Below are positions 5,857-24,089 of a DNA stretch of 39,586 nucleotides, in pieces. The notes beneath the pieces are model-generated. The model had not been told where the DNA came from, searched no databases, and saw only the letters and a list, made by a program, of their open reading frames with translations. The translations under genes and the position numbers were made by a program. Each line of letters opens with the position of its first letter. The first letter of the stretch is position 1. This stretch comes from an uncultured Elusimicrobia bacterium (GTDB lineage: Bacteria; Elusimicrobiota; Elusimicrobia; Elusimicrobiales; UBA9959): positions 1-39,586 of the forward strand of contig CAIRNJ010000097.1 of NCBI GenBank assembly GCA_903879915.1, in the 5' to 3' direction.

Positions 5857-8145
5857 ATGGAAAAACTTTCTTGCGTGGGAAAATCTCTGCCCAGGAAGGA
5901 CGCGCTGATAAAGGCGACCGGCGCGGCGCAGTACGCCGCCGACCGGGACTTCGCCGGCATGCTGTACGCGGCCGCGGTGCGCTCGCCCAGGCCCAGGATA
6001 AAGATACTTTCCATTTCCGACGCGAAAGCCCGCCGGGTGCCGGGCTACGTGACTTTAGTCACTTACAAGGACATCAAAGGCGTGAACAAATGGCCGGTGG
6101 TCATGCACGACTACCCTTTCCTGCCGGAAAAAGAGGCGCGTTTCGCCGGCGAGACCATCGCCCTGGTGGTAGCGAAGACCGCCGGCGCCGCGAAAAAAGC
6201 CGCCGCGCTGGTAGAGCTGAAATATAAGGAACTGCCTTTCGTGGCCGACCCCCTCAGGGCGCTGGAGAAGGATTCGGTTAAAATTCACGGCGAGGACAAT
6301 GTGTTCTCCAGCTTCGTGATCAAGAAAGGCTCGGTGGACGAGGCTTTTGAAAAAGCGGCTTTCACGGCGGAGGGGGAATTCTCCACCAATTACCAGGTGC
6401 ACGCCTACCTGGAGACGCAGGGCGCCATAGCCCTGCCCGAGCCGGGCGGCGGCATGACGGTGCACAGCACCACGCAGTGCCCTTTTTATATCCTCGACGC
6501 CGTGGCGGCCGCGCTGGCCCAGCCTTACCATAAGATAAAGATACTGCAGACCGTGACCGGCGGCGGCTTCGGCGGCAAGGAAGACGTGCCGGCCCTGGTG
6601 GCCTCGCACGCGGCCATCTGCGCCGCTAAGGTCGGCAGACCCGTAAAACTTATCTACGGGCGCAAAGAGGATTTCCAGAGCATGTCGAAGCGCCACCCCG
6701 GCTGGGCGAAGGTGGCCTATGCCGCGGACAAGAACGGGCGGCTCACCGCCTGCCGCGTAAAATACGTGCTGGACGGCGGGGCTTATTCCACGCTGTCGCC
6801 CATAGTGCTGTGGCGCGGCACCGTGCACGCCGCCGGGCCTTACAAAATAGCCAACGTGGACATAAAGACCTACGCCGCGGCCACCAATAAGGTGCCCTGC
6901 GGCGCTTTCCGCGGTTTCGGCCAGCCGCAGATCTGCTTCGCGCAGGAGTCGCTGATCGACGAACTGGCGGAAAAGACAGGGATGGACCCCGTGCAGTTCC
7001 GCCTGAAGAACATGCTGGAGCCGGGCGATAAGACCGTAACGGGGCAGAAACTTAATTCCTGCTGCGGGCTGAAAGAGATAGTGCAGGCGGTGAGAAAACG
7101 CAGCGGGTGGGATAAGAAAGTTAAGGGCCGGGGGCCGGGGGCCGGGGGGCCGGACGTCGTTGCCGGCATAGGTTTTTCCGCCACGTATTACGGCGTGGGG
7201 CTGGGGGCCGGCGGCCGCTACCTGGACCGCGCGGGCGCGATGGTGAACATCTATAAAGATTCCTCGGTGAGCGTCAGCGTTGGCAACGCCGAGATGGGCC
7301 AGGGCGCCCTGACCGTGCTGGCGCAGATAGCCGCCGAAACGCTCAACGCGCCGTATGAGGGCGTGAAGGTGGAAGAGGTGGATTCCTCCAAGGTGCCGGA
7401 TTCCGGCCCCACGGTGGCCAGCCGCACCACGCTGATGAGCGGCAACGCCATAGTGGACGCGGCCACGCCGCTGAGGGAGCGCATTTTCAAGACCGCCTTC
7501 GACCTGCTCGTAGCCGCGGGCGCGGACGCGTCGAAGCCGATGACGGCGGGCGGGGGCGTGTTCTCCATGGGCGGCAAGTCCGTGGAGTTCAGGCCGGTGG
7601 CGGCCGAGTGCTGGCGCCGGCGCCTGAAGATGTGCGAGCAGGGCTGGTATACCGCGCCCCGCACCTCGTTCAAGAACGAGGACGGCCAGGGCGACGCCTA
7701 CGTTATCTACTCCTATTCGGCCAACGCGGCCGAGGTGGAAGTGGACCTGAAGACGGGCGTGCTGAAGGTAAAAAAGATCTGGGCGGCCTACGATGTGGGC
7801 CGGATAGTCAACCCGCGGCTGGCCCTGGGCCAGGCGCAGGGCGGCATCCTGCAGGGCATGAGCTGGGCCGTTTACGAGAACCTGGTCTATAAGAACGGGA
7901 TCATGGTGAACCCTAACTTCACGGATTATGTCATAGCTACTACCGCCGATAAACCCGAATATGATATAACTTTTATAGAAAAGCCGTATAAGGACGGGCC
8001 CTATCATGCCAAAGGCATGGGCGAGGTGCCGCTTATAGGCGTGGCCCCGGCCATCGCCAACGCGGTGAAGAACGCCTGCGGCGCCCGCGTGACTTCCGTG
8101 CCGCTGCTGCCCGAAAAGATATGGAAGGAATTGAAGAAGGCTTGA
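5857..8145 (+). CDS. Xanthine dehydrogenase-family molybdopterin-binding subunit (enzyme 1)
   Basis: A 762-aa large subunit of a cytoplasmic molybdenum hydroxylase. Cofactor and substrate-site motifs are TGGGFGGKE near residue 235, GAFRGFGQPQ near 350, EMGQGALTVLAQ near 478 and KGMGEVPLIGVAP near 720. The last contains Glu723, in the position of the catalytic base. These enzymes hydroxylate a carbon next to a ring nitrogen with water as oxygen donor and pass electrons through 2Fe-2S clusters to FAD. Its partner subunits are encoded at 9497-10829, separated from it by an unrelated exported protein gene. The Arg in the FRGFG motif is compatible with purine binding, but the exact substrate cannot be read. 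A glycine/proline-rich loop around residues 423-432 is encoded by a G-rich repeat. Confidence 0.92.
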   Translation: MEKLSCVGKSLPRKDALIKATGAAQYAADRDFAGMLYAAAVRSPRPRIKILSISDAKARRVPGYVTLVTYKDIKGVNKWPVVMHDYPFLPEKEARFAGETIALVVAKTAGAAKKAAALVELKYKELPFVADPLRALEKDSVKIHGEDNVFSSFVIKKGSVDEAFEKAAFTAEGEFSTNYQVHAYLETQGAIALPEPGGGMTVHSTTQCPFYILDAVAAALAQPYHKIKILQTVTGGGFGGKEDVPALVASHAAICAAKVGRPVKLIYGRKEDFQSMSKRHPGWAKVAYAADKNGRLTACRVKYVLDGGAYSTLSPIVLWRGTVHAAGPYKIANVDIKTYAAATNKVPCGAFRGFGQPQICFAQESLIDELAEKTGMDPVQFRLKNMLEPGDKTVTGQKLNSCCGLKEIVQAVRKRSGWDKKVKGRGPGAGGPDVVAGIGFSATYYGVGLGAGGRYLDRAGAMVNIYKDSSVSVSVGNAEMGQGALTVLAQIAAETLNAPYEGVKVEEVDSSKVPDSGPTVASRTTLMSGNAIVDAATPLRERIFKTAFDLLVAAGADASKPMTAGGGVFSMGGKSVEFRPVAAECWRRRLKMCEQGWYTAPRTSFKNEDGQGDAYVIYSYSANAAEVEVDLKTGVLKVKKIWAAYDVGRIVNPRLALGQAQGGILQGMSWAVYENLVYKNGIMVNPNFTDYVIATTADKPEYDITFIEKPYKDGPYHAKGMGEVPLIGVAPAIANAVKNACGARVTSVPLLPEKIWKELKKA
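7125..7153 (+). repeat. G-rich tandem tract inside the Mo-subunit gene
   Basis: Runs of 3, 5, 5 and 6 G separated by CC, followed by a final GG, form a short tandem repeat with a unit of about seven bases. In frame it encodes a GRGPGAGGP-like loop. Four or more G-runs this close could fold into a G-quadruplex on the coding strand or in the mRNA. The tract may also be prone to slippage. Confidence 0.6.
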
Positions 8146-8161
8146 GCGAGGGAATATTGAA

Positions 8162-9481
8162 ATGAAAAACACTGTAAAAACTCTGTTCGCCGGGTTGCTG
8201 TTTCTTTCTTTTTTCTCCGCCGGGGTCCGCGCCGAGGATAAATACCTGCAGCTCGCCACGGAGATCAGTGAGGCCGGCTCCGAATTCCACGGGAAGAAAA
8301 TAGCCATCATCCCGTTCTCCTACGCCGACAACAGGGCCGGGGCCACCAAGGACGGCTCCGTGATCTCGGAGCGGCTTACGATGAAATTCATCAACATGCA
8401 TAAGTTCGAAGTCGTCGAGCGCGCCATGCTCGACAAGGTGATGGGCGAGCTGAAGCTGCAGTCCTCCGGCATGATGGACGCCACCTCCACGCAGCAGCTC
8501 GGCAAGCTGCTGGGCGTGCAGGCCATAATCACCGGCACCCTGGTAGAGACCTCGGACGGCCAGATAGAGGTTAACGCGCGCCTGATAAAGACCGAGACCG
8601 CGCAGGCTATCGGCGCTTCGCAGGTTACCGTGCAGAAGAACTGGATGGGCGACGCGGCCAGCGCCCCGCAGCAGCCCGCTTACCAGCCGGCCGCCTACCA
8701 GCAGCCGGCTTACCAGCCGCAGCCCGATTATCAGCAGCCGGTTGCGAAGTCTTACGTGCGCCAGCGCGGCACTTACGAATACGGCTATTTCGATATTTTC
8801 CTGGGCATGGGCTCTCCCAACATGGCGCTGGAATTCTACAACTCGTTAGGCACGATACGGCTCGACAATACCGGGACCAACGATCTGGGCGTACAGCTCA
8901 TAGGCGCCAGCGGTTCCCAGTATTATAGTTCCGTCAAATTCGACAAACTTAAAACTGCCGGGTTCGGCCCGCTGGCAATGCGGGTTGGCGGCTATGGCAA
9001 CGGGAATATGGGCGGAGCTTTTGAATTCGGGCTGGAAAGGCGCAATATAGTCCCGCAGAGTACCACCTGGAGCCTTAATAACGGGGCCCCGGGCAATTTT
9101 TCTTTCGGCAAAAGCGATTACCTCACCGTTACCTCGTTCTATATGGCCGGCGACCTGATGATACGGTTCGCCAAAAAAACGACAGTCGAGCCTTATATGG
9201 GTATCGGGCTTGGTTTTTCGCTCAACGCCATAAATATGCCGTACGTAAAAGGGTATACGAATTCCGCCTACAAAACGACGCCCACGGACGATTTCGGGCT
9301 GGGCCTGGTCCTCAATATCCCTTTCGGGGTGAGGCTGCAGATAGCCGACAAGACGCAGCTGGTGGCCGAGCTGCGCTACCAGCTCAACACGATGTTCTTC
9401 GACAGGGGTATAACCTCCGAAAGGGACGTGCTGACCGTAAGCGGCATGTATTTCAACGTGGGAATGGGCTTTGATTTCTAA
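8162..9481 (+). CDS. Exported protein: CsgG/FlgO-like domain plus outer-membrane barrel-like C-terminus
   Basis: A 439-aa protein with a signal peptide (MKNTVKTLFAGLLFLSFFSAGVRA, cut after residue ~24 at an A-x-A-like site). Residues ~40-170 have the pattern of CsgG/FlgO proteins: KIAIIPFSY, then VVERAMLDKVMGELKLQ, then LGKLLGVQAIITGTLVE. A glutamine/proline/tyrosine-rich linker follows (about 178-200, with repeated QPAYQP). The last ~235 residues alternate polar and hydrophobic residues with many Gly/Tyr/Phe and end in VGMGFDF, like an outer-membrane beta-barrel signal. It lies 16 bp after the Mo subunit gene and 15 bp before the FeS subunit gene, so it is almost certainly co-transcribed. 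Its role is unknown: substrate uptake, envelope assembly or adhesion are all possible. I recognise the N-terminal fold but not the whole protein. Confidence 0.75.
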   Translation: MKNTVKTLFAGLLFLSFFSAGVRAEDKYLQLATEISEAGSEFHGKKIAIIPFSYADNRAGATKDGSVISERLTMKFINMHKFEVVERAMLDKVMGELKLQSSGMMDATSTQQLGKLLGVQAIITGTLVETSDGQIEVNARLIKTETAQAIGASQVTVQKNWMGDAASAPQQPAYQPAAYQQPAYQPQPDYQQPVAKSYVRQRGTYEYGYFDIFLGMGSPNMALEFYNSLGTIRLDNTGTNDLGVQLIGASGSQYYSSVKFDKLKTAGFGPLAMRVGGYGNGNMGGAFEFGLERRNIVPQSTTWSLNNGAPGNFSFGKSDYLTVTSFYMAGDLMIRFAKKTTVEPYMGIGLGFSLNAINMPYVKGYTNSAYKTTPTDDFGLGLVLNIPFGVRLQIADKTQLVAELRYQLNTMFFDRGITSERDVLTVSGMYFNVGMGFDF

Positions 9482-9496
9482 GAAAGGATAAAGCCG

Positions 9497-9988
9497 ATGT
9501 CCGCTAAGAAAAACACTACCCCGGCCGTTTTCGCGCTGAGCTGCGCCGTGAACGGGCAAAGAACGGAGCTGGAAATACCCTCCTCCCTTTCTTTGCTGGA
9601 CTTCATCCGCGAAACCCTCGGGCTGAAGGGCACCAAGGAAGGCTGCGGCGAAGGCGAATGCGGCGCCTGCATGGTGCTGGTGAACGGGCGGGCGGTGAAC
9701 TCCTGCCTGATGATGGCCGTGCAGCTGCACGGCAAAGAGCTCGTTACCATTGAAGGCATAAAAGGCAAGGCCGGCGGCCTGCACCCGCTGCAGAAGACTT
9801 TTATGGCGGAAGGCGCCGTGCAGTGCGGGTTCTGCACTCCCGGCCTGATAATCGCCTCGGAGGCGCTGCTGCGCCGCAAGCCCAAAGCCACTCTGGAAGA
9901 GATCAAACTCGAGCTTACCGGGAACCTTTGCCGCTGCACCGGCTATGAAAAAGTCCTGTCAGCGGTGGAAAAAGCCCGCGGGAAGTAA
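9497..9988 (+). CDS. Molybdenum hydroxylase 2Fe-2S subunit (enzyme 1)
   Basis: A 163-aa small subunit with both 2Fe-2S domains of the family. The plant-ferredoxin-like cluster is held by Cys50, Cys55, Cys58 and Cys70 (CGEGECGAC...NSC). The helical domain has QCGFCTPG and LCRCTGY. It carries electrons from the Mo centre to FAD. The stop codon is 1 bp from the FAD-subunit start, so the two are translated together. An AAGGA site lies in front of the ATG. It pairs with the Mo subunit at 5857-8145; the pairing is inferred from position and gene order. Confidence 0.93.
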   Translation: MSAKKNTTPAVFALSCAVNGQRTELEIPSSLSLLDFIRETLGLKGTKEGCGEGECGACMVLVNGRAVNSCLMMAVQLHGKELVTIEGIKGKAGGLHPLQKTFMAEGAVQCGFCTPGLIIASEALLRRKPKATLEEIKLELTGNLCRCTGYEKVLSAVEKARGK

Positions 9989-9989
9989 A

Positions 9990-10829
9990 ATGCCTGAGAT
10001 CATAGTAAAACCTTCTGACCTTAAAGAACTCTGGGAAATGCTGCCGGGCCTCCCGGCCGCCCGCCGCTACCTTGCCGGCGGCACCGATATCGTGACGGCC
10101 GATAACGCCGGCGCCGAAAGTTCGGAATGCTGGATAGACATAAGCGGCCTGCCCGAGCTTGCGGCCATAAAAGAGACCGCCGGCGCGCTGTTCATAGGTT
10201 CCGGCGTGAAAATTTCCGAAATAGAGAATTCCAAAGCGGCCCGGAAGTGGTGCCCGGCGCTGGCGGCCGCCATCCCGCATTTCGCCAGCCCGTCGCTGAG
10301 GAACATGGCCACGCTGGGCGGCAACGCCGCCAACGGCAGTCCCTGCGCCGACGGCGTGTGCGCGCTGGTGGCCGAAGGGGCGTACGTGCTGCTGGCGCTC
10401 AAGGGCAAAAAACGCCGCCTGCCGCTGAGGGAACTGTTCCTCGGGCCCAAGCGGACCGCGCTGAAAAAGGACGAGCTTATACTGGCTTTTGAAATCCCGA
10501 AGCGCCCGCACGCCGGGGTTTACCTGAAGCTGGGGCCGCGCGCCTATTTCGGCATTTCCAAAGCGGCGGTGGCCCTGACGGCGGAGCTCTCCGGCGGGAC
10601 CATCAAAAGGGCCGTGGTGGCGCTGGGTTCGGTAGCGCCGGTGCCGCTGCTGGCCGTAAAAACCTCGGCCTGGCTGGCCGGCAGGCAGCTTTCGCCGCAG
10701 ACCGCGGCCGCCGCCGCGGCTATGGTGAAGGCCGAAGTCTCGCCCATAACAGATACCCGCAGCGAGGCCCAGTACCGCAGGGAAATGTGCGGCGTTCTGC
10801 TGGAGCGCGCCCTCGGCGGCCTGCGCTGA
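9990..10829 (+). CDS. Molybdenum hydroxylase FAD-binding subunit (enzyme 1)
   Basis: A 279-aa FAD subunit of the FAD_binding_5/CO_deh_flav_C type. The flavin-binding motifs are LAGGTDIV near residue 24 and LRNMATLGGNAANGSPCAD near 100. The C-terminal domain (about 175-275) has the usual FGISKAAVAL start. It transfers electrons from the 2Fe-2S clusters to NAD+ or another acceptor. I chose the ATG at 9990 because it follows the FeS-subunit stop by one base with GGAAG upstream. An in-frame start at 9945 would overlap that gene. The next gene, a TldD homologue, begins 26 bp later. Confidence 0.93.
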   Translation: MPEIIVKPSDLKELWEMLPGLPAARRYLAGGTDIVTADNAGAESSECWIDISGLPELAAIKETAGALFIGSGVKISEIENSKAARKWCPALAAAIPHFASPSLRNMATLGGNAANGSPCADGVCALVAEGAYVLLALKGKKRRLPLRELFLGPKRTALKKDELILAFEIPKRPHAGVYLKLGPRAYFGISKAAVALTAELSGGTIKRAVVALGSVAPVPLLAVKTSAWLAGRQLSPQTAAAAAAMVKAEVSPITDTRSEAQYRREMCGVLLERALGGLR

Positions 10830-10855: not shown

Positions 10856-12547
10856 ATGAAAAAATTGCTTGCCGCGGTTCTTCTGGCCTGCCCCTGCGCC
10901 GCAGCCGCGCAGGCCGCCGCCTCCGATCCCCTGCTGGACGCGCTTAAGACCGAACTGGCCCGCAGCGTTGCCGGCCTCGCGAACGCCGAAGCCGCCCCGC
11001 TCTATTACCTGGGCTACGAAGCCTATGACCGGACCTCTTATTCCCTCTCTGCCCGTTTGGGCGCGCTGTACAGCGAGGACGACTCCCGCAGCCGCCAGCT
11101 GGACGTGGACGCGCGGGCGGGCTCTCCGGAGCTGGACAACACGCATGAAGTAAAGGGCGCCAACTCCTCGGGCAATTCCAAACAGCAGGAATATTTCAAC
11201 CTGCCGGTGGAGGACGACCCCGCGCCGCTGCGCGCCGAGGTGTGGAGCCTTACCGACCGGGCGTACAAAGCCGCGCAGGACCAGTACGCGAAAGTGAAGA
11301 TGAACAAAAGCGTGACGGCGGAGGAAGAGGATAAGTCCGACGATTTCACCCGGGAGGGGGGCGCCGTATTCTATGAGAAGGCCTCTTTCCCGGAAATAGA
11401 CAAGGCCAAATTCCGGGTGATGGCGCGCCGGCTTTCCGAGAAGTTCAAGCCGTACGATTTTCTCTACAGTTCCGAAGTGCGCCTGATAGCGGATACGGTG
11501 AACCGCTACATGGTGAATTCCGAAAGCTCCAGCATAGTCACCGGCAACACCTACGTGCGCTTCATGTACTCGCTTTACACCCGCACCCCCGACGGCATGG
11601 ACCTTTCCCGGCTGAAGATCTACGACTCCGACAGGCCCGGCGAGGTCCCCGACGAGGCCGCGATAGCAAAAGACATCGACGATTCCATAGCCGAACTTAA
11701 GGCGCTGCGCGCCGCCCCGCCGGAGCAGCCCTACAGCGGCCCGGTGCTGCTCGACAGCCGCGCGGCCGGGGTTTTCTTCCACGAGATACTGGGCCACCGC
11801 ATGGAAGGGCACCGCCAGAAGAGCGAGGATTCCGGCCAGACCTTCGCGAAGAAAGTCGGCCAGCCTATAATGCCCTCCTTCCTGAGCGTCTACGACGACC
11901 CCTCGCAATACCGCTACGGCAGCCAGTTCCTGCGCGGCTTTTACCGCTTCGACGACGAGGCCGTGCCGGCGCGCAAGGCCGTGCTGGTGGACAAAGGCGT
12001 CCTTAAAGGTTTCCTGATGGGCCGCTCGCCCATAAAGAATTTCCCGGTTTCCAACGGCCACGGCCGCCGCAGCGACGGGCACGGCGCGGTGGCTCGCATG
12101 GGCAACCTGATAGTGGTTTCCACCATGACCGTCCCCTACGCCGAGCTGCGCCGGGCGCTGGTGAGGGAAGTTAAAAAAGCCCGTAAACCTTACGGCCTTA
12201 TAGTTTCCGATATCGCCGGCGGGTTCACCATCACCGACCGCTACCTGCCGCAGAGCTTTTCGGTGAGCGTGACCATGGGCTACAAAATCTACGCCGACGG
12301 CCGCCCGGACGAACCGGTGCGCGGGCTTAACCTTATAGGCACGCCGCTGCAGACCTTCGCGCGCATCCTGCTCACCGGCGACGACTACGGGGTCTTTAAC
12401 GGCACCTGCGGCGCCGAGTCCGGCTGGGTGCCGGTCTCGGCGGTGGCGCCCAGCCTGCTTTTCTCCGAGATAGAGACCGAGAAAGTGCAGAAATCCAACG
12501 ACAGGCCGCCGGTGCTGAAGCCGCCCTTTACGGACACACGACCATGA
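10856..12547 (+). CDS. TldD-family zinc metalloprotease with a signal peptide
   Basis: A 563-aa protein starting with a signal peptide (MKKLLAAVLLACPCAAAAQA). The core is a TldD/PmbA-type peptidase: the zinc motif H309-E310-x3-H314 lies in FFHEILGHRMEGH. Later come NLIVVSTMT, the IAGGFT stretch and the NGTCG...VPVSAVAPSLL ending typical of active TldD subunits. Known TldD/TldE pairs are cytoplasmic heterodimers that thread and cleave unfolded peptides, as in microcin B17 maturation and CcdA turnover. Here the protein should act outside the cytoplasm. It is about 80 residues longer than E. coli TldD and its N-terminal domain is diverged. The stop overlaps the start of the partner gene by 4 bp (ATGA). 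An upstream in-frame start at 10787 would bury the signal peptide and is rejected. Confidence 0.87.
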   Translation: MKKLLAAVLLACPCAAAAQAAASDPLLDALKTELARSVAGLANAEAAPLYYLGYEAYDRTSYSLSARLGALYSEDDSRSRQLDVDARAGSPELDNTHEVKGANSSGNSKQQEYFNLPVEDDPAPLRAEVWSLTDRAYKAAQDQYAKVKMNKSVTAEEEDKSDDFTREGGAVFYEKASFPEIDKAKFRVMARRLSEKFKPYDFLYSSEVRLIADTVNRYMVNSESSSIVTGNTYVRFMYSLYTRTPDGMDLSRLKIYDSDRPGEVPDEAAIAKDIDDSIAELKALRAAPPEQPYSGPVLLDSRAAGVFFHEILGHRMEGHRQKSEDSGQTFAKKVGQPIMPSFLSVYDDPSQYRYGSQFLRGFYRFDDEAVPARKAVLVDKGVLKGFLMGRSPIKNFPVSNGHGRRSDGHGAVARMGNLIVVSTMTVPYAELRRALVREVKKARKPYGLIVSDIAGGFTITDRYLPQSFSVSVTMGYKIYADGRPDEPVRGLNLIGTPLQTFARILLTGDDYGVFNGTCGAESGWVPVSAVAPSLLFSEIETEKVQKSNDRPPVLKPPFTDTRP

Positions 12548-14256
12548 ACAGACCAGCGGCCGCCCTGCTTTTGCTCCTTTCAGCCGCCGCCCCGGCCGCG
12601 GCCGGAGAGGACGTGGTGCTGAAGGCCATGTCCGACGAAATGCGGCGCACCGCGCAGAGCCTGCAGATGGACAGCCTGGACAGGCCGTATTTCGTGTCCT
12701 ATTACGTGATGGATTCCACCGAGGATTCTATCTCCGCCGTGTTCGGTTCGCTGCGGGACGACCGGCGCTATATCTCGCGCGACGCCACCGTGGACCTGCG
12801 CGTGGGCACCATGAGCTTCGACAGCTCCGGCTACGTGGGGCAGGATTTCAACGGCTACAAGCCCGGCACCGACTCCCTCAACGAGGAGGACGGCTACGAC
12901 GCGCTGCGCTTCTCGCTGTGGTCGCTGACCGACGACGCGTACAAGAAGGCCCTGGAAAAATATTCCCAGAAAAAAGCCTACCAGCAGAAGAAGAACATCT
13001 CCGAGCTGTACGGCGACCTGTCCGCGGAAAAGCCGGAGTCCTACTATTCGGACAGGGAACGGACCGAGCCTTTCGACGCCCCGGCCTGGCGCGCGAACCT
13101 AAAGGCCCTTTCAGCCGTCTTCCGCAAATATCCCAAGATACAGGGCTCGCAGGTGGTCTTTTCCAGGACGCTGCGCACGGTGCGCTTCGTCAACAGCGAG
13201 GGCACGCGCTACCGCTACTGGTGGGACAAGATAAGCCTGGACGTCAGGGCCTCGGTGCAGGACCGGACCGGCCTGCGCCTCTCCGACGAGAAGAAATACT
13301 CCTGGCGCTCCCTGGCCGCGGTGCCGCCTTTCGAAAAGCTGGCCGCCGAGACGGAAGCTTTCGCCCGCGACATGAGCTACCTGGTGGACTCCTCCAGCGC
13401 GGAGGTTTACCTGGGGCCGGTGCTGTTCGAGGACCAGGCGGCGGCGGAGTTCCTCAACCAGCTGTTCGTCCGGAACGTTTCGTTCGCCCGCGTGCCCTGG
13501 GCCGACCGTGAGGACTGGGTGCGCTATTACATAGATTCCGGGGACCTTGCCAAGAAGCTTAACATGCGCGTGCTGCCGGCTTTCATGAACGTCACCGACG
13601 ATCCGGGGGCTTTGGCCTATGAAGGCGTTGAGCTGAACGGGAGCTACCCCATAGACAACGAAGGCGTGCGCCCCGCCCCACTGGAGCTGGTGAAGAACGG
13701 GAAACTGACGGGGTTCTACATGAGCCGCGCCCCCGTGAAGGAATACCGCAGTTCCAACGGCCACGCGCGGGGGTTCCTCAACGAATTCCCTACGCCGCGG
13801 CCCGGCAACGTGTTCTTCGCCGTCAGCCCGGAAAAGCGCGCGCCCCTGCCGGCGCTGAAGAAAGAACTGCTCAGGCTGGCCGCCGAGAACGGCCTGGACT
13901 ACGCGCTGCTGGTGCGCCGGCTGGACCCCGAGGACGCCAAAAAAAGCGAGGACCTGCTGGCCGGGCCGATGCTGGCTTACAAGGTGAGCGTGAAGGACGG
14001 CTCCGAAACCATCATAGGCGGGGCGGAATGGACGGGTGTCACTTTCCGGGCGCTGCGCGACATCCTGCTTGTTTCGGACAAGGACTACGTGTATAATTTT
14101 TATCAGCCGGGCCCTTTCCTGTACGACCGCGGCTATGTGCCGGTATCCATAGTGGCGCCCGCCGCGCTGCTGGTGCAGGAAATGGAGCTGAAGCCCACGG
14201 ACAGCAAGCCGGACCGGCAGCCCTATCTGCCGCATCCGTATTTCGGCGCTAAGTAA
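12544..14256 (+). CDS. TldE/PmbA-like partner protein with a signal peptide
   Basis: A 570-aa protein with a signal peptide (MNRPAAALLLLLSAAAPAAA). It shares the overall plan of the preceding TldD homologue: an N-terminal domain with FSLWSLTDDAYKKA matching EVWSLTDRAYKAA, a central domain, and a closing VPVSIVAPAALLVQEME matching VPVSAVAPSLLFSEIE. The zinc motif is missing: where TldD has HEILGH this protein has a DQAAAEFLNQLF stretch. That is the pattern of the non-catalytic TldE subunit. The 4-bp overlap with the upstream gene implies coupled translation and a heterodimer. The two genes appear to be ancient paralogues. They are flanked by molybdenum hydroxylase genes, but nothing visible ties their substrate to those enzymes. 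Confidence 0.8.
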   Translation: MNRPAAALLLLLSAAAPAAAGEDVVLKAMSDEMRRTAQSLQMDSLDRPYFVSYYVMDSTEDSISAVFGSLRDDRRYISRDATVDLRVGTMSFDSSGYVGQDFNGYKPGTDSLNEEDGYDALRFSLWSLTDDAYKKALEKYSQKKAYQQKKNISELYGDLSAEKPESYYSDRERTEPFDAPAWRANLKALSAVFRKYPKIQGSQVVFSRTLRTVRFVNSEGTRYRYWWDKISLDVRASVQDRTGLRLSDEKKYSWRSLAAVPPFEKLAAETEAFARDMSYLVDSSSAEVYLGPVLFEDQAAAEFLNQLFVRNVSFARVPWADREDWVRYYIDSGDLAKKLNMRVLPAFMNVTDDPGALAYEGVELNGSYPIDNEGVRPAPLELVKNGKLTGFYMSRAPVKEYRSSNGHARGFLNEFPTPRPGNVFFAVSPEKRAPLPALKKELLRLAAENGLDYALLVRRLDPEDAKKSEDLLAGPMLAYKVSVKDGSETIIGGAEWTGVTFRALRDILLVSDKDYVYNFYQPGPFLYDRGYVPVSIVAPAALLVQEMELKPTDSKPDRQPYLPHPYFGAK

Positions 14257-14309: not shown

Positions 14310-15125
14310 ATGAAAAATATCAAGTATTACGCTTTCCCTTCCACCGCGAAGGAAGCGGTAGCGCTGCTGCTGAACAAAAAATACAAGGCCATGGCGCTGG
14401 CCGGCGGCACGCTGGTGGCGAAAACGCTGCCCGACACTGTCGAGACCTACCTCGACATCAGGAACGTTCCCATCAAGGGTATAAAGCTGCAGGGGGGGAA
14501 CCTGGTCATAGGCGCCGGCGCCACCTTCGACGAGATAGACCGTTCGAAGCTGTGCCGCGGCTGGGCCGGCGGGGTGATCTCGGCGGCGGCGGCCAAGTGC
14601 TCCAGCCAGCTGATACGCAATATGGCCACCATCGGCGGCAATATCGCGCGCCCGCATTCGTTCAATATTTTCCCGGTGGTGCTGCTGGGCCTGGACGCCA
14701 AGGTGCGGCTGGCCGTGCGCTCCGGCGCCAAACTGACGGACCTGCCGGGCCTGTACGCCGCAAACCTGGGCCTGCGGCCCGGCCTGGACTGCCTGATAAC
14801 CGAAATTATCATACCGGCGAAGACCAAAAAATGGCGCTGCGAATTCATCAAGCTGGCGAAGACCGAATCCAGCTGGGAATCCTACATCAAGCTGTTCTTC
14901 TCCCTCGAGAAGAAAGGCAAGGCCGTGCAGAGCCGCATCTGCGTGGGCGCGCTGTCGCCCAAGCCTTTCAGGGCTCTTTCCACCGAAGCGGCCATTGCCG
15001 CGGGGGCGGCGCCCGAAGCCTGCGCGGCCGCTTTCGCGGCCGAGCTCGAAGCCGCGCGCGCGGGGGATTACCGCTCGGCGGCCGCGTCGAGCCTGCTCAG
15101 GCGGTTCCTGGAGGCGGTAAAATGA
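14310..15125 (+). CDS. Molybdenum hydroxylase FAD-binding subunit (enzyme 2)
   Basis: A 271-aa FAD subunit. The first flavin motif is LAGGTLVAK near residue 32, slightly diverged from the usual AGGT(D/N). The second is IRNMATIGGNIARPHS near 110. There is no extra 4Fe-4S segment of the kind found in 4-hydroxybenzoyl-CoA reductase. The ATG at 14310 has a perfect GGAGG five bases upstream; a GTG six bases earlier would lie on that site and is less likely. The stop overlaps the FeS-subunit ATG by 4 bp. The FAD-FeS-Mo order differs from enzyme 1, which argues for a separate origin rather than a recent local duplication. Confidence 0.92.
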   Translation: MKNIKYYAFPSTAKEAVALLLNKKYKAMALAGGTLVAKTLPDTVETYLDIRNVPIKGIKLQGGNLVIGAGATFDEIDRSKLCRGWAGGVISAAAAKCSSQLIRNMATIGGNIARPHSFNIFPVVLLGLDAKVRLAVRSGAKLTDLPGLYAANLGLRPGLDCLITEIIIPAKTKKWRCEFIKLAKTESSWESYIKLFFSLEKKGKAVQSRICVGALSPKPFRALSTEAAIAAGAAPEACAAAFAAELEAARAGDYRSAAASSLLRRFLEAVK

Positions 15126-15634
15126 ACAACAAGAACATGCTGGAGGCCAAGAAAGGTTTCTTCGACATAACCCTCACCATCAACGGCGAGTTCCTGGAGC
15201 TGGCCGTGAAGAACGGCGAGTTCCTGCTGGACGCGCTGCGCCGCCACGGCTGGAAAAGCGTGAAGAAAGGCTGCGACACCGGCGACTGCGGCTCCTGCAC
15301 CGTGCTGCTCGACGGCAAGCCCGTGCTGGGCTGCCTGGTGCCGGCCGTCACCGCGCACGGCCGCGCGGTCACCACCATAGAAGGCCTGGGCACCGTGCGC
15401 AAGCCGCACGCGCTGCAGGAGGCTTTCGTGGCGGCCGGCGCCGTGCAGTGCGGCTTCTGCATCCCCGGCATGATACTTTCCTCCAAGGCGCTGCTGGACG
15501 CCGTGCCCGCCCCCACCGAGGCCGAGATACGCAAGGCCCTGGACGGCAACCTGTGCCGCTGCACCGGCTACGTGAAGCAGGTGGAGGCCGTAAAGAACGC
15601 CGCCAAAAAACTGGCCGGCAAGCGGCGCGCTTGA
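15122..15634 (+). CDS. Molybdenum hydroxylase 2Fe-2S subunit (enzyme 2)
   Basis: A 170-aa two-cluster ferredoxin-type subunit. Cys51, Cys56, Cys59 and Cys71 hold the first cluster (CDTGDCGSC...GC), and QCGFCIPG plus LCRCTGY hold the second. It relays electrons from the molybdenum centre to the FAD subunit encoded just upstream, with which it overlaps by 4 bp (ATGA). The longer upstream frame reading into the FAD gene has no coding support. The Mo subunit gene follows after 37 bp with its own GGGAG site. Confidence 0.93.
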   Translation: MNNKNMLEAKKGFFDITLTINGEFLELAVKNGEFLLDALRRHGWKSVKKGCDTGDCGSCTVLLDGKPVLGCLVPAVTAHGRAVTTIEGLGTVRKPHALQEAFVAAGAVQCGFCIPGMILSSKALLDAVPAPTEAEIRKALDGNLCRCTGYVKQVEAVKNAAKKLAGKRRA

Positions 15635-15671
15635 AAGAACGTAAGCAATTCTGATTTACCCGGGAGAAACT

Positions 15672-17981
15672 ATGGACGCTACAAAACTTAAGGTGGTCAA
15701 CAAGCCGGTGACGAAGATGGACGCCCTGGGCCTGGCCTGCGGCGAGCCGGCCTTTACGGACGATATGGATTTCAACGGCCTGCTCCACGCGAAGCTCCTG
15801 TGGAGCCCGCACGCGCACGCGCGGATAAAGAAAATAGACGTTTCCGAGGCGCTGAAGGTGCCCGGCGTGAAGGCCGTGCTGACCTACGAGGACCTGCCGC
15901 GCGTGCCGCATACCACCGCCGGCCAGGGCTACCCGGAGCCGTCGCCGTACGACACCTACACGCTGGACAATAAAGTGCGCTACGTGGGCGACCGCGTGGC
16001 CGCGGTGGCGGCCGAGACCATCGAAGCCGCGCATGAGGCCGTGCTGAAGATAAAAGTGGACTACGAGATACTGCCCGCCGTGCTGAACACCTTCGACGCC
16101 ATGAAGGACGGCGCCCCGGTGATCCACGACGAGGAGGATTCCAAGAACATCCCCGACGCGCGGCATAACATCGCCGCCAAATTCGATTTCGAGGTGAAGA
16201 ACGGCGAATGGTTCAAGGAAGCGGACCACGTGTTCGAGCACAGCTGGACCATTCCTTACCTGCAGCACTGCGCCATCGAGCCGCATATTTCCATAGCCTA
16301 TTTCGACAACACCGGCCGGCTGGTGCTGCGCACCTCCACGCAGGTGCCTTTCCACGTGCGCCGCATCGTGGCGCAGGCGCTGAAGATACCGGTAAAGAGC
16401 ATCCGCGTGATAAAGCCCCGCATAGGCGGCGGCTTCGGCTCCAAGCAGGAAGTGCTGGAAGACATCGTGGCCGCGCTGGCGCTGAAGACCGGCAAGCCCG
16501 TCAAGCTGGAATATACGCGCAAGGAAACCTTTATCTCGTCGCGCACCCGCCACCCGGCCACCTGCCGCATGAAGGCCGGCGTAAAAAAGGACGGCACCAT
16601 AACCGACGCCGAGATGGAGATAACGCTCAACACCGGCGCCTACGGCTCCCACGCGCTCACCGTGATGATGTGCTCCGGTTCGCACACCATCCCGATGTAC
16701 CGCGTTAAGAACAATATCCGCTTCATAGGCCGCAGCGTGTACACCAATATGCCCGTGGCCGGGGCCTACCGCGGCTACGGCGCCACGCAGGGCTTCTTCG
16801 CCTGGGAATGCCTGATGGACATTATGGCGGCCAAGATCGGCATGGACCCCGTGGAGTTCCGCCGGATGAACTATATAAAGCTCGGCGAGGGCTCGCCGGT
16901 GTTCAAAGCCATGGGCGAAGGCCGTGAGGGCGTGGAACAGGTGATCACTTCCACCGGCCTGTTCGAGGCCATACAGAAAGGCGTGGACGAAATAAAGTGG
17001 GCCGAGAAGAAAGCGAAGTACGCCGGCCAGACCGGCCCCGTCCGCCGCGGCGTGGGCGTGGCCTGCATGATGCAGGGTTCCGGCATCCCCGAAGTGGACA
17101 TGGCCTCCGCCACCATGAAGATGAACGAGGACGGCTCGTTCAACCTGCTGGTGGGCGCGGCCGACCTGGGCACCGGGTCCGACACTATACTCGCCCAGAT
17201 AGCGGCCGAAGTGCTGGGCATCAAGGCCGACGACATAATAGTTACCTCTTCCGATACCGACATCACGCCGTTCGACGTGGGCGCCTACGCCTCGTCGACC
17301 ACGTTCATCTCCGGCGGCGCGGTGAAGAAGACCGCCGAGAGGGTGCGGGACATGATCATAGAGGTGGCGGCGAAGATCCTCGACCAGAAGAAAGAGGACC
17401 TGCGCCTGGAGGGCGGCAAAGTGGTGGCCGCGGACGGCGCCTCCTGCTCCCTGTCCGAAGTGGCCAACACTTCGCTCTACTATTATAACCAGCACCAGAT
17501 AACGGCTTCCGCCTCGCATTTCGCCCATACCTCCCCGCCGCCTTTCCAGGCGAACTTCGCCGACGTGGAAGTGGACACCGGGACCGGCAAGATAAAGATA
17601 CTGGATTACGTCTCGTGCGTGGATTGCGGCACGGCCATCAACCCGCAGCTGGCCGAGGGCCAGAACGACGGCGCGGTGGTCAACGGCATCAGCCATACGC
17701 TCTCCGAGGAGATGGAGTTCTCCTCCAACGGCACGCCGCTCAACGCCAGCTTCCGCCGCTACAAGATACTTTCGGCCGCCGACACGCCCCCGGTGCGCAC
17801 TTTCATAATCCCCACCTGGGAGCCAAACGGGCCTTTCGGTGCCAAATCTGTATCCGAGATAGGCATCAACGGCCCGCTGCCGGCGGTGGCCAACGCTGTC
17901 TATAATGCCTGCGGCATCTGGCTGTTCGACGCGCCGTTCACGCCGGACAAAGTGCTGGCGGCGCTTAAAAAAAAGGGCTGA
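15672..17981 (+). CDS. Xanthine dehydrogenase-family molybdopterin-binding subunit (enzyme 2)
   Basis: A 769-aa large subunit. Motifs in order are IGGGFGSKQE near residue 255, GAYRGYGATQG near 365, DLGTGSDTILAQIAAE near 500 and GAKSVSEIGINGPLPAVANAV near 725, with Glu729 in the position of the catalytic base. The DLGTGSDT and AKSVSEIG wording resembles bacterial XdhA-type subunits more than CO dehydrogenase, whose AYRCSFR loop is absent. It should hydroxylate a purine or related N-heterocycle using the MCD cofactor made by the MocA and XdhC homologues. It is clearly diverged from the enzyme 1 large subunit (FRGFGQPQ versus YRGYGATQ), so the two probably act on different substrates or successive steps. 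GGGAG lies upstream of the ATG. Confidence 0.92.
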   Translation: MDATKLKVVNKPVTKMDALGLACGEPAFTDDMDFNGLLHAKLLWSPHAHARIKKIDVSEALKVPGVKAVLTYEDLPRVPHTTAGQGYPEPSPYDTYTLDNKVRYVGDRVAAVAAETIEAAHEAVLKIKVDYEILPAVLNTFDAMKDGAPVIHDEEDSKNIPDARHNIAAKFDFEVKNGEWFKEADHVFEHSWTIPYLQHCAIEPHISIAYFDNTGRLVLRTSTQVPFHVRRIVAQALKIPVKSIRVIKPRIGGGFGSKQEVLEDIVAALALKTGKPVKLEYTRKETFISSRTRHPATCRMKAGVKKDGTITDAEMEITLNTGAYGSHALTVMMCSGSHTIPMYRVKNNIRFIGRSVYTNMPVAGAYRGYGATQGFFAWECLMDIMAAKIGMDPVEFRRMNYIKLGEGSPVFKAMGEGREGVEQVITSTGLFEAIQKGVDEIKWAEKKAKYAGQTGPVRRGVGVACMMQGSGIPEVDMASATMKMNEDGSFNLLVGAADLGTGSDTILAQIAAEVLGIKADDIIVTSSDTDITPFDVGAYASSTTFISGGAVKKTAERVRDMIIEVAAKILDQKKEDLRLEGGKVVAADGASCSLSEVANTSLYYYNQHQITASASHFAHTSPPPFQANFADVEVDTGTGKIKILDYVSCVDCGTAINPQLAEGQNDGAVVNGISHTLSEEMEFSSNGTPLNASFRRYKILSAADTPPVRTFIIPTWEPNGPFGAKSVSEIGINGPLPAVANAVYNACGIWLFDAPFTPDKVLAALKKKG

Positions 17982-19912: not shown

Positions 19913-21205
19913 ATGAAAAAATTTCTGGTGCCGGCTCTGTGCTCCTTCCTTTTTTCTGTGCCATGCGCGGCGGCGCCTTTTACGCCGAAAGCGTACATCA
20001 AGGCCGCGCTCGACGCCTCGCTGACCATGCGCAGGTCCGAGCAGACCTTCAGGCAGGCCGAGAACAACTATAAGAACACCATCCTGGACGCGGCGCTGCC
20101 AGCGTTCACTTTCAGCATGTCGGATACTTTTTACGGCGACCAGCGGACGGCGCCGCGCCTGAGCCGCGGCGACGTGGATTCCAGGCTGTCCGCGGCATGG
20201 AACCTGTACGATTCCGCCGCCGGGCCGCTGTATAAAGTAAGAACGGCCAAGCTGGATTTTGAATCCGCCAGGCTCGTCCATCTTATCGCCCGGCAGAACG
20301 AGGCCGTAAAGGCGCTCAACCGTTTTTACTCGCTGTATTCGGCGCAGCAGAAGATAAGCATCGCCAAGATGAACCTGGAATCGCGCGAGCGCCAGTACAA
20401 AGACACCAACGAACAGTACCAGTCGGGTACGCGCAGCAAAATAGAAGTGACGCAGAGCGAAGGCGACAAGCTGCAGAGCGAGCTGGCGCTGGCGCAGGCC
20501 GAAGCCGCCGAGCGCAAAGCGCTGATGGCCTTCAACGAACTGATAGACGCCGAGCCGGACGCGCAGCAGGAAGTGCAGGTCAGCACCCAATCGGTCAATA
20601 TAGCGTTGCCGCTGCCCAAAGAGGACGTGGCCAGGGCGCTGGAGAACAATTTAGGCCTGCGGCAGCAGCGGCTGACGCTGGACAAGACCAGGCTTTCCAC
20701 CCGCTCCGGCAGCCTGTCGAATTACCCGCGGGTTAAAGTGGACGCCGCCTGGGGCAAGTCGGCCCTGGGGATACTGGGCACTAAAAGCGGTTCCTGGAGC
20801 GGCAACCCGTCCTACGGCCTGGGAGCCACTTTGAGCTTTCCGTTCGGCTTCGCCGGCGTGCAGAACTACCGCGAGCTGGATACGCAGAAAGCCGTGCTGG
20901 AGGCAGCCGAGCTCGAGCTTAAGAATTCCGTCCGCGCGCTGAAGACCAGCGTGCTGTCCGCGCAGAACGATATAGCGCTGCAGGTTAAATCCCGCCAGCT
21001 GCTGGAGTTCCAGGTGAACGCGCAGAAGGACGCCACGGACAACCTGCTTACCGAGTATTCGGTGGGCAACGCCGCTTTTCTGCAGCTGGACAGTTCTCAG
21101 ACCAAGCTGCTGGACGCCAGCAACAGCCAGATAACCGCCCTCAACGACCTGGACCTGGCGCTGGCGGGCTACAAGGTGCTGCTGGGCGAGAGTTTTTGGG
21201 AGTGA
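19913..21205 (+). CDS. TolC-family outer-membrane efflux protein
   Basis: A 430-aa protein with a signal peptide (MKKFLVPALCSFLFSVPCAA). It has two repeats of long amphipathic helices rich in Ala, Gln, Glu and Leu (about 30-215 and 235-425), as in OEP/TolC proteins. Typical short stretches are YKNTILDAALPAF, the QYKDTNEQYQSGTRSKIEVTQ turn, and the second-repeat version LLTEYSVGNAAFLQLDSSQ. Three copies would make the outer-membrane channel and periplasmic tunnel. The membrane-fusion, ATPase and permease genes follow without gaps, so this is the exit duct of a MacAB-type exporter. The start ATG has a poor Shine-Dalgarno match. Confidence 0.9.
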   Translation: MKKFLVPALCSFLFSVPCAAAPFTPKAYIKAALDASLTMRRSEQTFRQAENNYKNTILDAALPAFTFSMSDTFYGDQRTAPRLSRGDVDSRLSAAWNLYDSAAGPLYKVRTAKLDFESARLVHLIARQNEAVKALNRFYSLYSAQQKISIAKMNLESRERQYKDTNEQYQSGTRSKIEVTQSEGDKLQSELALAQAEAAERKALMAFNELIDAEPDAQQEVQVSTQSVNIALPLPKEDVARALENNLGLRQQRLTLDKTRLSTRSGSLSNYPRVKVDAAWGKSALGILGTKSGSWSGNPSYGLGATLSFPFGFAGVQNYRELDTQKAVLEAAELELKNSVRALKTSVLSAQNDIALQVKSRQLLEFQVNAQKDATDNLLTEYSVGNAAFLQLDSSQTKLLDASNSQITALNDLDLALAGYKVLLGESFWE

Positions 21206-21207
21206 CT

Positions 21208-22131
21208 ATGAAAAGAATTGTAAAACCGACGATCTGGATAGTGGTCCTGGCGCTGCTGGGCGCCGGGGGGTACGCCGGGTACGTCCGGTACAAGAAAATG
21301 TCCATACGCCCGGATATCGCGGATTTTCTGCGCACCGTCACCAAAGGCGACCTGAAGCTGGACATGGAGGAGTCGGGCGAGCTGGTGTCCCGCGACACGG
21401 TGGACGTTTTCCCGCCCAGCAAAGGTTTTATCGTCGAGATAGTCAAGAAAGAAGGCGAGTACGTGGAGAAGAACGAGAAGATCATGATGTTCAAGGGCGG
21501 GGAGCGCATAGATTCCACCCAGTACGTGCCGGTGCCCATAGTGGCTTCCCGCTCCGGCCTGCTCACCCGCTGCATCAGCCGCTACGGCCAGAGCGACGAC
21601 GAGGTGCGCGAGGGCAAGCGCGTGGACAGCGCCGGCACCTGCGTGACCCGCATAGTGGACATGAAATCCCTGGCGGTGAACCTGAAGATCAGCGAGCTGG
21701 ACATCTTCAAGCTGAAGCTGGGCATGCCCGTCTCCATCACCTTCACCTCCATTCCCGGCGAGAAATTCACCGGCAAGGTGGACGTGATAGCGCCCATGGC
21801 CGAGACCAAGTCCAGCAACTGGGGCGGCGGCGGCTCCAAGGTTTTCCGCGTGGTGATAAACATCGACAGGCCCACGCTGAAGATGCGCGTAGGTATGAGC
21901 TCGGTGGTGACCGCCAACATGCAGGCGAAGAAGAACGTGCTCAAAGCGCCCATCGAAACCCTTTTTCAGGAAGGGCTGAACCATTTCGTGTACCGCCAGC
22001 TGGACGGCTACAATGCCGAGAAGCTGGAAGTGTTCCCCGGCTTGCGCTCGGAAGCCGAGGTTGAGCTGGTCGGCGGCAGCGTGAAGCCCGGGGACAAGCT
22101 GTTCACCGCCGTGCCGGAGACGCTTAAATAG
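21208..22131 (+). CDS. Membrane-fusion (periplasmic adaptor) protein, MacA-like
   Basis: A 307-aa protein anchored by an N-terminal membrane segment (residues ~7-25, IWIVVLALLGAGGYAGYV). Residues 55-95 resemble the first half of a lipoyl/barrel-sandwich domain (VDVFPPSKGFIVEIVKKEGEYVEKNEKI), and the second half follows directly near 110. The long alpha-helical hairpin of MacA is therefore missing or very short. A beta-barrel domain (LKISELDIFKLKLGMPVSI) and a C-terminal domain follow. It should join the MacB permease to TolC. ATG 21208 has GGGAG five bases upstream; a TTG at 21196 inside the tolC frame is not needed. The gene abuts the ATPase gene with no spacer. Confidence 0.85.
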   Translation: MKRIVKPTIWIVVLALLGAGGYAGYVRYKKMSIRPDIADFLRTVTKGDLKLDMEESGELVSRDTVDVFPPSKGFIVEIVKKEGEYVEKNEKIMMFKGGERIDSTQYVPVPIVASRSGLLTRCISRYGQSDDEVREGKRVDSAGTCVTRIVDMKSLAVNLKISELDIFKLKLGMPVSITFTSIPGEKFTGKVDVIAPMAETKSSNWGGGGSKVFRVVINIDRPTLKMRVGMSSVVTANMQAKKNVLKAPIETLFQEGLNHFVYRQLDGYNAEKLEVFPGLRSEAEVELVGGSVKPGDKLFTAVPETLK

Positions 22132-22797
22132 ATGAGCATAAGGTGCGTCGATCTTATCAAGACCTACGAGGGCGGCAAGGCCGGCTGGCCGGCCCTGCGC
22201 GGCGTTTCGTTCGAGATAAAGGCGGGAGAGTTCGTGGCCGTCACCGGGCATTCCGGCTGCGGCAAATCCACCCTGCTCAACATCATAGGCCTGCTCGACG
22301 AGCCCACCGCCGGGCAGTACGAGTTCAACGGGCGCAACGTCCTTTCCATGTCCGACCAGGAGCGCTCCGGGGCGCGGCTGGGGGAGATAGGTTTCGTGTT
22401 CCAGGCTTTTCATCTGCTCAACCGCCTGTCCGCCCTCGGCAACGTTTGCCTGCCGCTGATGTACGCCGGAGCCGACTCCGCCGAGATGAAAGAGCGCGCT
22501 GCCGCGCTGCTGCATAAGGTGGGGCTGAAAGGCAAAGAGCGCAAGACCCCGCTGGAGCTGTCCGGCGGCGAGCGCCAGCGCGTGGCCATAGCGCGGGCGC
22601 TGGCCAATTCCCCAAAGCTGCTGCTCGCCGACGAGCCCACCGGCAACCTGGATTCCGTTTCCAGCCGCGAGATAGTGGACATGCTGTTCGGGCTCAACGC
22701 CGAGGGCATCACCGTGGTGATGGTCACGCATGACAAGGAGATCTCCGCCAGGGCCAGGCGCAATATACGGCTGCGCGACGGGAGACTGGAAGAATGA
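22132..22797 (+). CDS. ABC transporter ATP-binding protein, MacB/LolD type
   Basis: A 221-aa ATPase with Walker A (GHSGCGKST, near residue 38), Q-loop (FVFQAFHLL), signature LSGGERQR (near 143), Walker B (LLLADEPTGNLD) and H-loop (VTHDKE). The QAFHLLNRLSALGNVCLPLMY wording is typical of the MacB/LolD group, which powers periplasmic mechanotransmission rather than membrane-crossing transport. Its start directly follows the adaptor stop (TAGATG), and its stop overlaps the permease start by 4 bp. The substrate is not evident: a lipid, peptide or antibiotic are all possible. Confidence 0.95.
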   Translation: MSIRCVDLIKTYEGGKAGWPALRGVSFEIKAGEFVAVTGHSGCGKSTLLNIIGLLDEPTAGQYEFNGRNVLSMSDQERSGARLGEIGFVFQAFHLLNRLSALGNVCLPLMYAGADSAEMKERAAALLHKVGLKGKERKTPLELSGGERQRVAIARALANSPKLLLADEPTGNLDSVSSREIVDMLFGLNAEGITVVMVTHDKEISARARRNIRLRDGRLEE

Positions 22798-24089
22798 GGG
22801 CGCTGCTCAACGCGGTAAAGACCGGCTTCGCCGAGATCTGGGCGCATAAGATGCGCTCCGTGCTGAGCTTTCTCGCCATCGCGGCCGGCTCCGTGGTCTT
22901 CATAGACGCCTTCTCCGCCATTTTCGCCACCTATGACCGGCTGGAAAAGCAGAAGGAAGTTTCCGGCATGGCGCGGCTCAAGATCACGCAGAACTACAGC
23001 CAGACCTACGCCTCCCCCGACGATTACGTGGCGCCTCCCGCCTTCACCTACGACGACGTGGTCAGCTTCAGGGAAAAAATGCCCGAGTTCTACATGGTCT
23101 CGCCCGAAGTGAAGGACTGGCACGACGTGGTGGAATACGACGGCCGGCGCATGGTGACGAACCTGATGGGCGTCACCCCCGAATGGATCAAGCGCGATTT
23201 CGTCTACAAGCTCAGGGGCCGCTTCATCGACTGGCACGACATCGAGAACAAACTGAGGGTCTGCGTGCTGATGCGCAAAAGCGCGCCGCCGCCCACCAAC
23301 GGCTTCTTCAAAAGCATGATGAAAAAATGGAATTTCACCCAGGGGTTCGACACCCTGGTGGCGCATAACGACCTGCTGGGAAAAACGCTGAAGATAGAAG
23401 GGTTCACTTTTACGGTGGTCGGGATCCTCGAGGAACTTCCCTATTCCAAGCGCCCCAACATTATCCTGGGCTCTTCCGGGGACTACAAGGTGCTGGCGCC
23501 GCTCACCACCCTTTCGCATTTTAATTTCATCAGCCCCGGCCAGTCGCTGGACGTGAGCATCGACACAGGCGACGAAAAGACCTTCGACGAGTCCCTGCGG
23601 CGCATAAAGAACTTCCTGAAGATCCGCTACGGCGACGACGAATTCTTCATCATCGAGAACCAGCTGGAGCTTATCAGGGAGCGCATAGGGGACAGCATCA
23701 AGGCTTCGCTGGTCACGATCTCGCTGGGGATGCTGGCGTTCATCGCCGGCGGCATCGGCATCATGAACGTGACGCTGGCCACCGTGTTCGCGCGCACGAA
23801 GGAAATAGGCATACGCCGGGCCATCGGCGCCAGCCGCGGCGACATCATGCTGCAGTTCATCGTGGAAGCCGTGATGCTGGGGCTGATAGGCGGCGTGCTG
23901 GGCTCGGCCATCGGGTGGCTGTGGGGCGGGCCGGTAAAGATCATGGTCGGCATGGACCCGAGCGACATAAAAGCGTGGATGCCGCTGGTGTCGGTCTTCA
24001 TCGCCGTGCTGACGGCTTTCGTGTTCGCCATCTACCCCGCCTGGGTGGCCGCGGGCCTCAAGCCCGCCGACGCGCTGCGGGCGGAGTAG
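22794..24089 (+). CDS. MacB-type ABC transporter permease
   Basis: A 431-aa permease with the MacB plan: one N-terminal membrane helix (residues ~20-40), a large periplasmic domain (~45-300) and three C-terminal helices. The conserved stretch GGIGIMNVTLATVFARTKEIGIRRAIGASR (320-350) is the FtsX/MacB coupling region. The periplasmic domain is unusually basic and aromatic around residues 150-190 and carries a KSAPPPTNGFFKSMMKK insertion. It overlaps the ATPase gene by 4 bp, completing a four-gene TolC-MFP-ATPase-permease operon. Confidence 0.93.
   Translation: MRALLNAVKTGFAEIWAHKMRSVLSFLAIAAGSVVFIDAFSAIFATYDRLEKQKEVSGMARLKITQNYSQTYASPDDYVAPPAFTYDDVVSFREKMPEFYMVSPEVKDWHDVVEYDGRRMVTNLMGVTPEWIKRDFVYKLRGRFIDWHDIENKLRVCVLMRKSAPPPTNGFFKSMMKKWNFTQGFDTLVAHNDLLGKTLKIEGFTFTVVGILEELPYSKRPNIILGSSGDYKVLAPLTTLSHFNFISPGQSLDVSIDTGDEKTFDESLRRIKNFLKIRYGDDEFFIIENQLELIRERIGDSIKASLVTISLGMLAFIAGGIGIMNVTLATVFARTKEIGIRRAIGASRGDIMLQFIVEAVMLGLIGGVLGSAIGWLWGGPVKIMVGMDPSDIKAWMPLVSVFIAVLTAFVFAIYPAWVAAGLKPADALRAE

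Follow-up and report, generated by a model that had tools for sequence, protein, structure and literature searches.

The window analysed here, 39,586 nucleotides of an Elusimicrobiota genome (contig C97 of G000, an assembly 99.16% complete), encodes a pair of TldD/TldE-like proteins with apparent signal peptides, lying among genes for molybdenum hydroxylases (Table 1). About 60% of bacterial genomes are described as having TldD/E (PMC10885120). Its physiological role is poorly defined and has been studied in the cytoplasm. The locus raises the question of where this pair acts, and on what. A search of the open literature, with incomplete coverage, turned up no earlier account of an exported TldD/E clade, although one may exist.

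Table 1. Features of the pair and of the genes that flank it, in positions of the window.
Feature	Position	Strand	Basis
Hydroxylase 1, molybdopterin subunit	5857..8145	+	Pfam
Exported FlgO/CsgG-domain protein with probable C-terminal outer-membrane barrel (ends GMGFDF)	8162..9481	+	Pfam; sequence; synteny
Hydroxylase 1, 2Fe-2S (9497-9988) and FAD (9945-10829) subunits	9497..10829	+	Pfam
tldD-like gene (ATG to stop), predicted exported catalytic subunit, 563 aa	10856..12547	+	ORF; PF19289; phmmer; Foldseek
Predicted TldD signal peptide, about 18 aa, MKKLLAAVLLACPCAAAA	10856..10909	+	read from sequence; conserved in relatives; crude test
HExxxH metal-binding motif HEILGH, then RMEGHRQK	11780..11797	+	sequence; conservation
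CGAESG, third metal ligand Cys; Ala at the position of E. coli TldD Lys456	12407..12424	+	alignment; conservation
ATGA (4 bp) shared by the end of tldD and the beginning of tldE	12544..12547	+	sequence
tldE-like gene (ATG to stop), predicted exported non-catalytic subunit, 570 aa	12544..14256	+	ORF; PF19289; Foldseek
Predicted TldE signal peptide, about 20 aa, MNRPAAALLLLLSAAAPAAA	12544..12603	+	read from sequence; conserved in relatives; crude test
Hydroxylase 2, FAD (start 14310 or 14304), 2Fe-2S (15122-15634) and molybdopterin (15672-17981) subunits	14310..17981	+	Pfam

Family membership of the pair

The ATGA overlap bears out the coupling of the two genes proposed in an earlier note on this DNA and, judging by the gene layout, both subunits are encoded by one translationally coupled message. 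A longer tldD frame starting at GTG 10787 was rejected, as this codon is unconserved and the start codons of relatives correspond to 10856.

Both proteins match the Pfam profile PmbA_TldD_3rd (PF19289; TldD, E=2.2e-31, 109 bits; TldE, E=3.2e-16, 60 bits; cut-off 22). The profile of the N-terminal domain (PF01523) matches neither protein, nor anything else in the genome, yet Foldseek matched the overall fold over about 540 columns. In NCBIfam, both proteins fall well short of the scores required of known TldD or PmbA equivalogs; for the characterised TldD equivalogs NF008006 and NF040952 the values are 66 bits (cut-off 513) and 82 bits (cut-off 635). Against the PDB, phmmer placed TldD with E. 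coli TldD (5nj5_A, E=4.4e-19) and gave no convincing match for TldE. AlphaFold2 models were obtained for TldD (pLDDT 77, pTM 0.78, with low confidence in the loops around the active site) and TldE (pLDDT 84.5, pTM 0.86), for which Foldseek returned TldD (E=2.5e-26) and TldD/PmbA (E about 1e-25), respectively. The top 16 PDB matches were all TldD/PmbA (TM 0.53-0.66 by query length), the next had an E of about 0.02, and neither model matched anything except TldD/PmbA at E<0.001. Profiles and models together place the pair in the TldD/PmbA superfamily (peptidase family M103).

The E. coli TldD/TldE complex (PmbA; M103; PDB 5NJ5-5NJF) is a sphere-shaped heterodimer into which unfolded peptides can enter; in characterised TldD/E, proteolysis of such peptides requires the heterodimer. 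It resembles the window pair in fold (Foldseek E about 1e-25), in being a conserved pair, and in combining a TldD that carries HExxxH and Cys ligands with an inactive TldE. It differs in that the window proteins have signal peptides, share with it 13-18% identity in structural alignments, have N-terminal halves below Pfam detection and are about 60 residues longer in mature form. The archaeal and Thermotoga TldD/PmbA proteins (6J6A, 1VL4) have the same fold and belong to another clade; we know of no export signal on them.

Export signals and active site

The signal peptides that the earlier note had read at the start of both proteins are found in the window pair and in most exported-clade relatives. 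After presumed cleavage (sites read by eye), TldD continues with QAAASDP and TldE with GEDVV. The TldD signal is probably of type I. An LLAC lipobox would make this TldD a lipoprotein, but the motif looks like a chance occurrence, unconserved in close relatives, and this assignment was rejected. Homologues that start downstream of the signals had been named as evidence against export; instead, relatives (Elusimicrobia, a Planctomycete and others) begin with a positively charged n-region that leads into a hydrophobic segment and a cleavage site made up of small residues, and several myxobacterial homologues of the exported clade carry lipoprotein signals. No export signal is present on the canonical TldD/E of the same phyla. 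A rule-of-thumb signal test, used in place of a trained predictor and on related, hence not independent, sequences, was passed by 76 of 96 exported-clade TldDs and 69 of 89 TldEs, compared with 0/7 canonical TldDs, 1/9 canonical TldEs and 90/347 neighbouring genes. The failures include signals that are clear by eye, with a polar residue in the hydrophobic core, as well as the deep Planctomycetota group L170-L173 described below.

Because the signal recurs in most exported-clade relatives while canonical copies of the same phyla lack it, this conservation marks it as evolutionarily real and not due to chance. The mature TldD has a single Cys, the metal ligand, and the mature TldE has none, as expected of proteins outside the cytoplasm. 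From these features the pair is very probably exported, and the contrast with signal-less canonical copies agrees with the suggestion that it represents a use distinct from that of the characterised cytoplasmic TldD/E.

The motifs reported for the two proteins were also confirmed. TldD retains HExxxH (HEILGH) and the GTCG ending (GTCGAESG), whereas in TldE the helix position reads EDQAAAEFLNQLFV, and both HExxxH and the corresponding Cys are missing. HEILGH and CGAESG align with His262, Glu263, His267 and Cys454 of E. coli TldD, which function in metal binding and catalysis (PMC5810440). Across all 77 paired relatives there is no variation in the two His, the Glu and the Cys, nor in the Arg that follows HExxxH or the Ala that follows CG. 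TldE lacks all metal ligands. The position of E. coli Asp272 is occupied by His (69), Gln (7) or Phe (1). In E. coli TldD, Lys456 is bridged by Asp272 and Glu270; as Lys456 is always Ala in the paired relatives, this bridge appears to be rewired there. Given the changes of Asp272 to His and Lys456 to Ala, the specificity may differ from that of E. coli TldD.

A tree built by a quick method, with long branches and four canonical sequences, separates all exported-type TldDs from the canonical ones by a long branch. Tree and motifs indicate that exported TldDs are a clade of their own with an altered active site (GHRxEGHRQK and CGAESG, as in the window, versus GHGLEGD and CGKEG in E. coli TldD). 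The deep Planctomycetota relatives L170-L173 read HEA(M/L)GHRLEGN and have no clear signal peptide; from sequence, these may be cytoplasmic, and they are possible intermediates between canonical and exported forms.

Distribution, partnership and neighbouring genes

Exported-type relatives, most with signals, were found in Elusimicrobiota, Myxococcota, Planctomycetota and one cyanobacterium. Strong matches (E<=1e-60) occur in 164 of 295 Elusimicrobiota genomes. For the other phyla the samples were centred on gene-bearing genomes, with matches in 66/141 (Myxococcota), 9/149 (Planctomycetota, where those listed include the L170-L174 group) and 1/146 (Cyanobacteria). Family f2 of the Elusimicrobiota, with small genomes, has an exported match in 77 of 79 genomes, and no f2 genome is among the 112 Elusimicrobiota genomes with the canonical PF01523 domain. 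Members of f1, the family of the window, mostly have both kinds. The genome studied here encodes one exported pair on contig C97 and another on C75; a canonical pair was not found in its 99% complete assembly, which may reflect either an assembly gap or loss. That Elusimicrobiota as a whole lack canonical TldD/E was rejected, since most relatives in the genus have PF01523 matches. The second exported pair (L023; 955-2703 and 2748-4433 of C75) belongs to another clade and is located away from hydroxylases.

TldE lies directly downstream of exported TldD in 77 of 95 cases, and the divergence of the two proteins correlates (r=0.95, to which shared ancestry contributes). In the Planctomycete G440 (L198/L168) they are fused into one polypeptide that has a single signal peptide, one half being catalytic and the other non-catalytic. 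Seven of the myxobacterial genomes examined (G386, G307, G390, G313, G342, G413 and G339) have a lone exported TldD as their sole detected family member, located in G386 and G307 on a contig of about genome size. The lone TldDs of Myxococcota (L184, L185, L192-L196) are often predicted lipoproteins, and Elusimicrobiota of family f4 have a lone exported TldD plus a canonical pair. Thus, the catalytic/non-catalytic pairing noted earlier is kept in the window and is not universal; genomes with a lone TldD show that TldE is dispensable in some lineages. In Myxococcus xanthus, a "Peptidase U62" (MXAN_2519) is enriched in outer-membrane vesicles, in which cytoplasmic GroEL is also abundant (PMC4158809). 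We liken this protein to the exported clade by family name and extracytoplasmic fraction, not by sequence.

In the window, genes for XdhC, the molybdopterin subunit, the FlgO/barrel protein and the 2Fe-2S and FAD subunits precede the pair on the same strand, and FAD, 2Fe-2S and molybdopterin subunit genes follow it. The flanking gaps are 26 and about 50 nt and contain no strong terminator- or promoter-like site that we could find. The pair had been described as inserted between two hydroxylase operons; hydroxylase genes do lie on both sides but, given the short gaps without such sites, the pair and the flanking genes may be one transcription unit. The placement of the FlgO/barrel gene between the molybdopterin and 2Fe-2S genes of hydroxylase 1 is an odd order kept in many relatives. 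Further downstream, the window encodes a TolC, HlyD, ABC and MacB-like tripartite exporter (19913-24089), which is also encoded downstream of the pair in several relatives. A beta-lactamase-family protein (PF13354; 24824-25819) with a lipobox-like N-terminus comes after the exporter.

The window belongs to a clade of 25 loci (type-I), of which 21 adjoin molybdenum-hydroxylase genes by homology-based calls, 17 of them between two sets; L011, L132, L056 and L057 have no such link. One hydroxylase-flanked pair (L075, in G135 of family f2) falls outside the clade, for which transfer and ancestral linkage are possible explanations. We looked for neighbours recurring across the other clades and found none. 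Signal-bearing pairs recur beside the same neighbours in most type-I loci and L075, but not in most other clades. The hydroxylase linkage is clade-limited and has been partly lost without loss of the pair, so the neighbours say little about function or substrate.

Proposed role and alternatives

We consider it fairly probable that the pair acts in the periplasm as a heterodimeric metallopeptidase and trims unfolded peptides there. TldD and TldE would each be exported by their own Sec signal and, once in the periplasm, would probably fold to give a hollow heterodimer. TldD would bind zinc or iron via His309, His314 and Cys518 and cut with Glu310 (precursor numbering), with TldE, devoid of catalytic residues, completing the shell. 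Most likely, the complex would act as a general peptidase on unfolded polypeptides or peptide debris in the envelope. It would not be specific to the molybdenum hydroxylases, with which it shares a clade-specific gene cluster. The peptide-threading mode is carried over by fold from E. coli TldD/E; since other family members are sequence-specific, it is a default, not a result. The family also contains non-threading proteases.

It is unlikely, although worth weighing, that the exported pair instead cuts a specific amide (in a modified peptide, a small molecule or the cell wall), as do some TldD-like enzymes of natural-product pathways. The invariant changes beside the metal site would fit such an activity, and specific enzymes occur in the family, in which members other than E. 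coli TldD/E are specific in their cleavage or act at the C-terminus; Amm12/13, for one, takes off a single C-terminal dipeptide (PMC12424672). N-deacetylases of the TldD family are named in the title of a review cited in PMC10885120, and LmbIH and LmbQ are superfamily members whose function was not settled when published (PMC4351081). However, Amm12/13, LmbIH/LmbQ and the microcin-processing TldD/E, often paired like the proteins studied here, sit in peptide or antibiotic biosynthetic pathways; no such cluster is found at the window pair, and across clades the pair has no recurring biosynthetic neighbour. Broad retention in small genomes also suits a general role better.

Less probable still is that the pair is dedicated to maturing the product of a nearby gene, either the FlgO/barrel outer-membrane protein or a peptide that the downstream MacAB-TolC-like pump exports. 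Where hydroxylase 1 is absent (L008-L011, L071), the FlgO/barrel gene stands immediately before TldD, and in L011 and L132, which lack the second hydroxylase too, a TolC-HlyD-ABC(-MacB) set directly follows TldE, but outside the type-I clade neither neighbour adjoins the pair.

Service to the hydroxylases, such as the maturation or clearance of a subunit, would account for the gene order kept in 21 of 25 type-I loci and in L075. We regard it as highly improbable: the hydroxylase subunits showed no signal, which implies a compartment different from that of the exported pair, and in L011, L132, L023 and most other clades the pair has no hydroxylases beside it. Hydroxylase function was rejected as an explanation because the linkage is clade-limited. 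A cytoplasmic location like that of E. coli TldD/E, with hydrophobic N-termini that do not serve as signals, as the lack of a clear signal in L170-L173 might suggest, is equally hard to credit in view of type I Sec and lipoprotein signals at the same position across phyla, the signal-less canonical copies and the near absence of Cys.

With export signals on most copies in at least four bacterial phyla, a known protein-trimming system appears to have an overlooked envelope version. Tentatively, exported TldD/E could be a core envelope peptidase with an altered active site, one that has outlived the cytoplasmic pair in f2 and exists in a TldE-free version in some myxobacteria. The clade bears on whether the enzyme clears envelope peptides and, as its members are sometimes lone or fused, provides natural experiments on the role of the fold and the need for TldE. 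The small f2 genomes keep the exported form without the canonical first domain, and the role is thus testable there.
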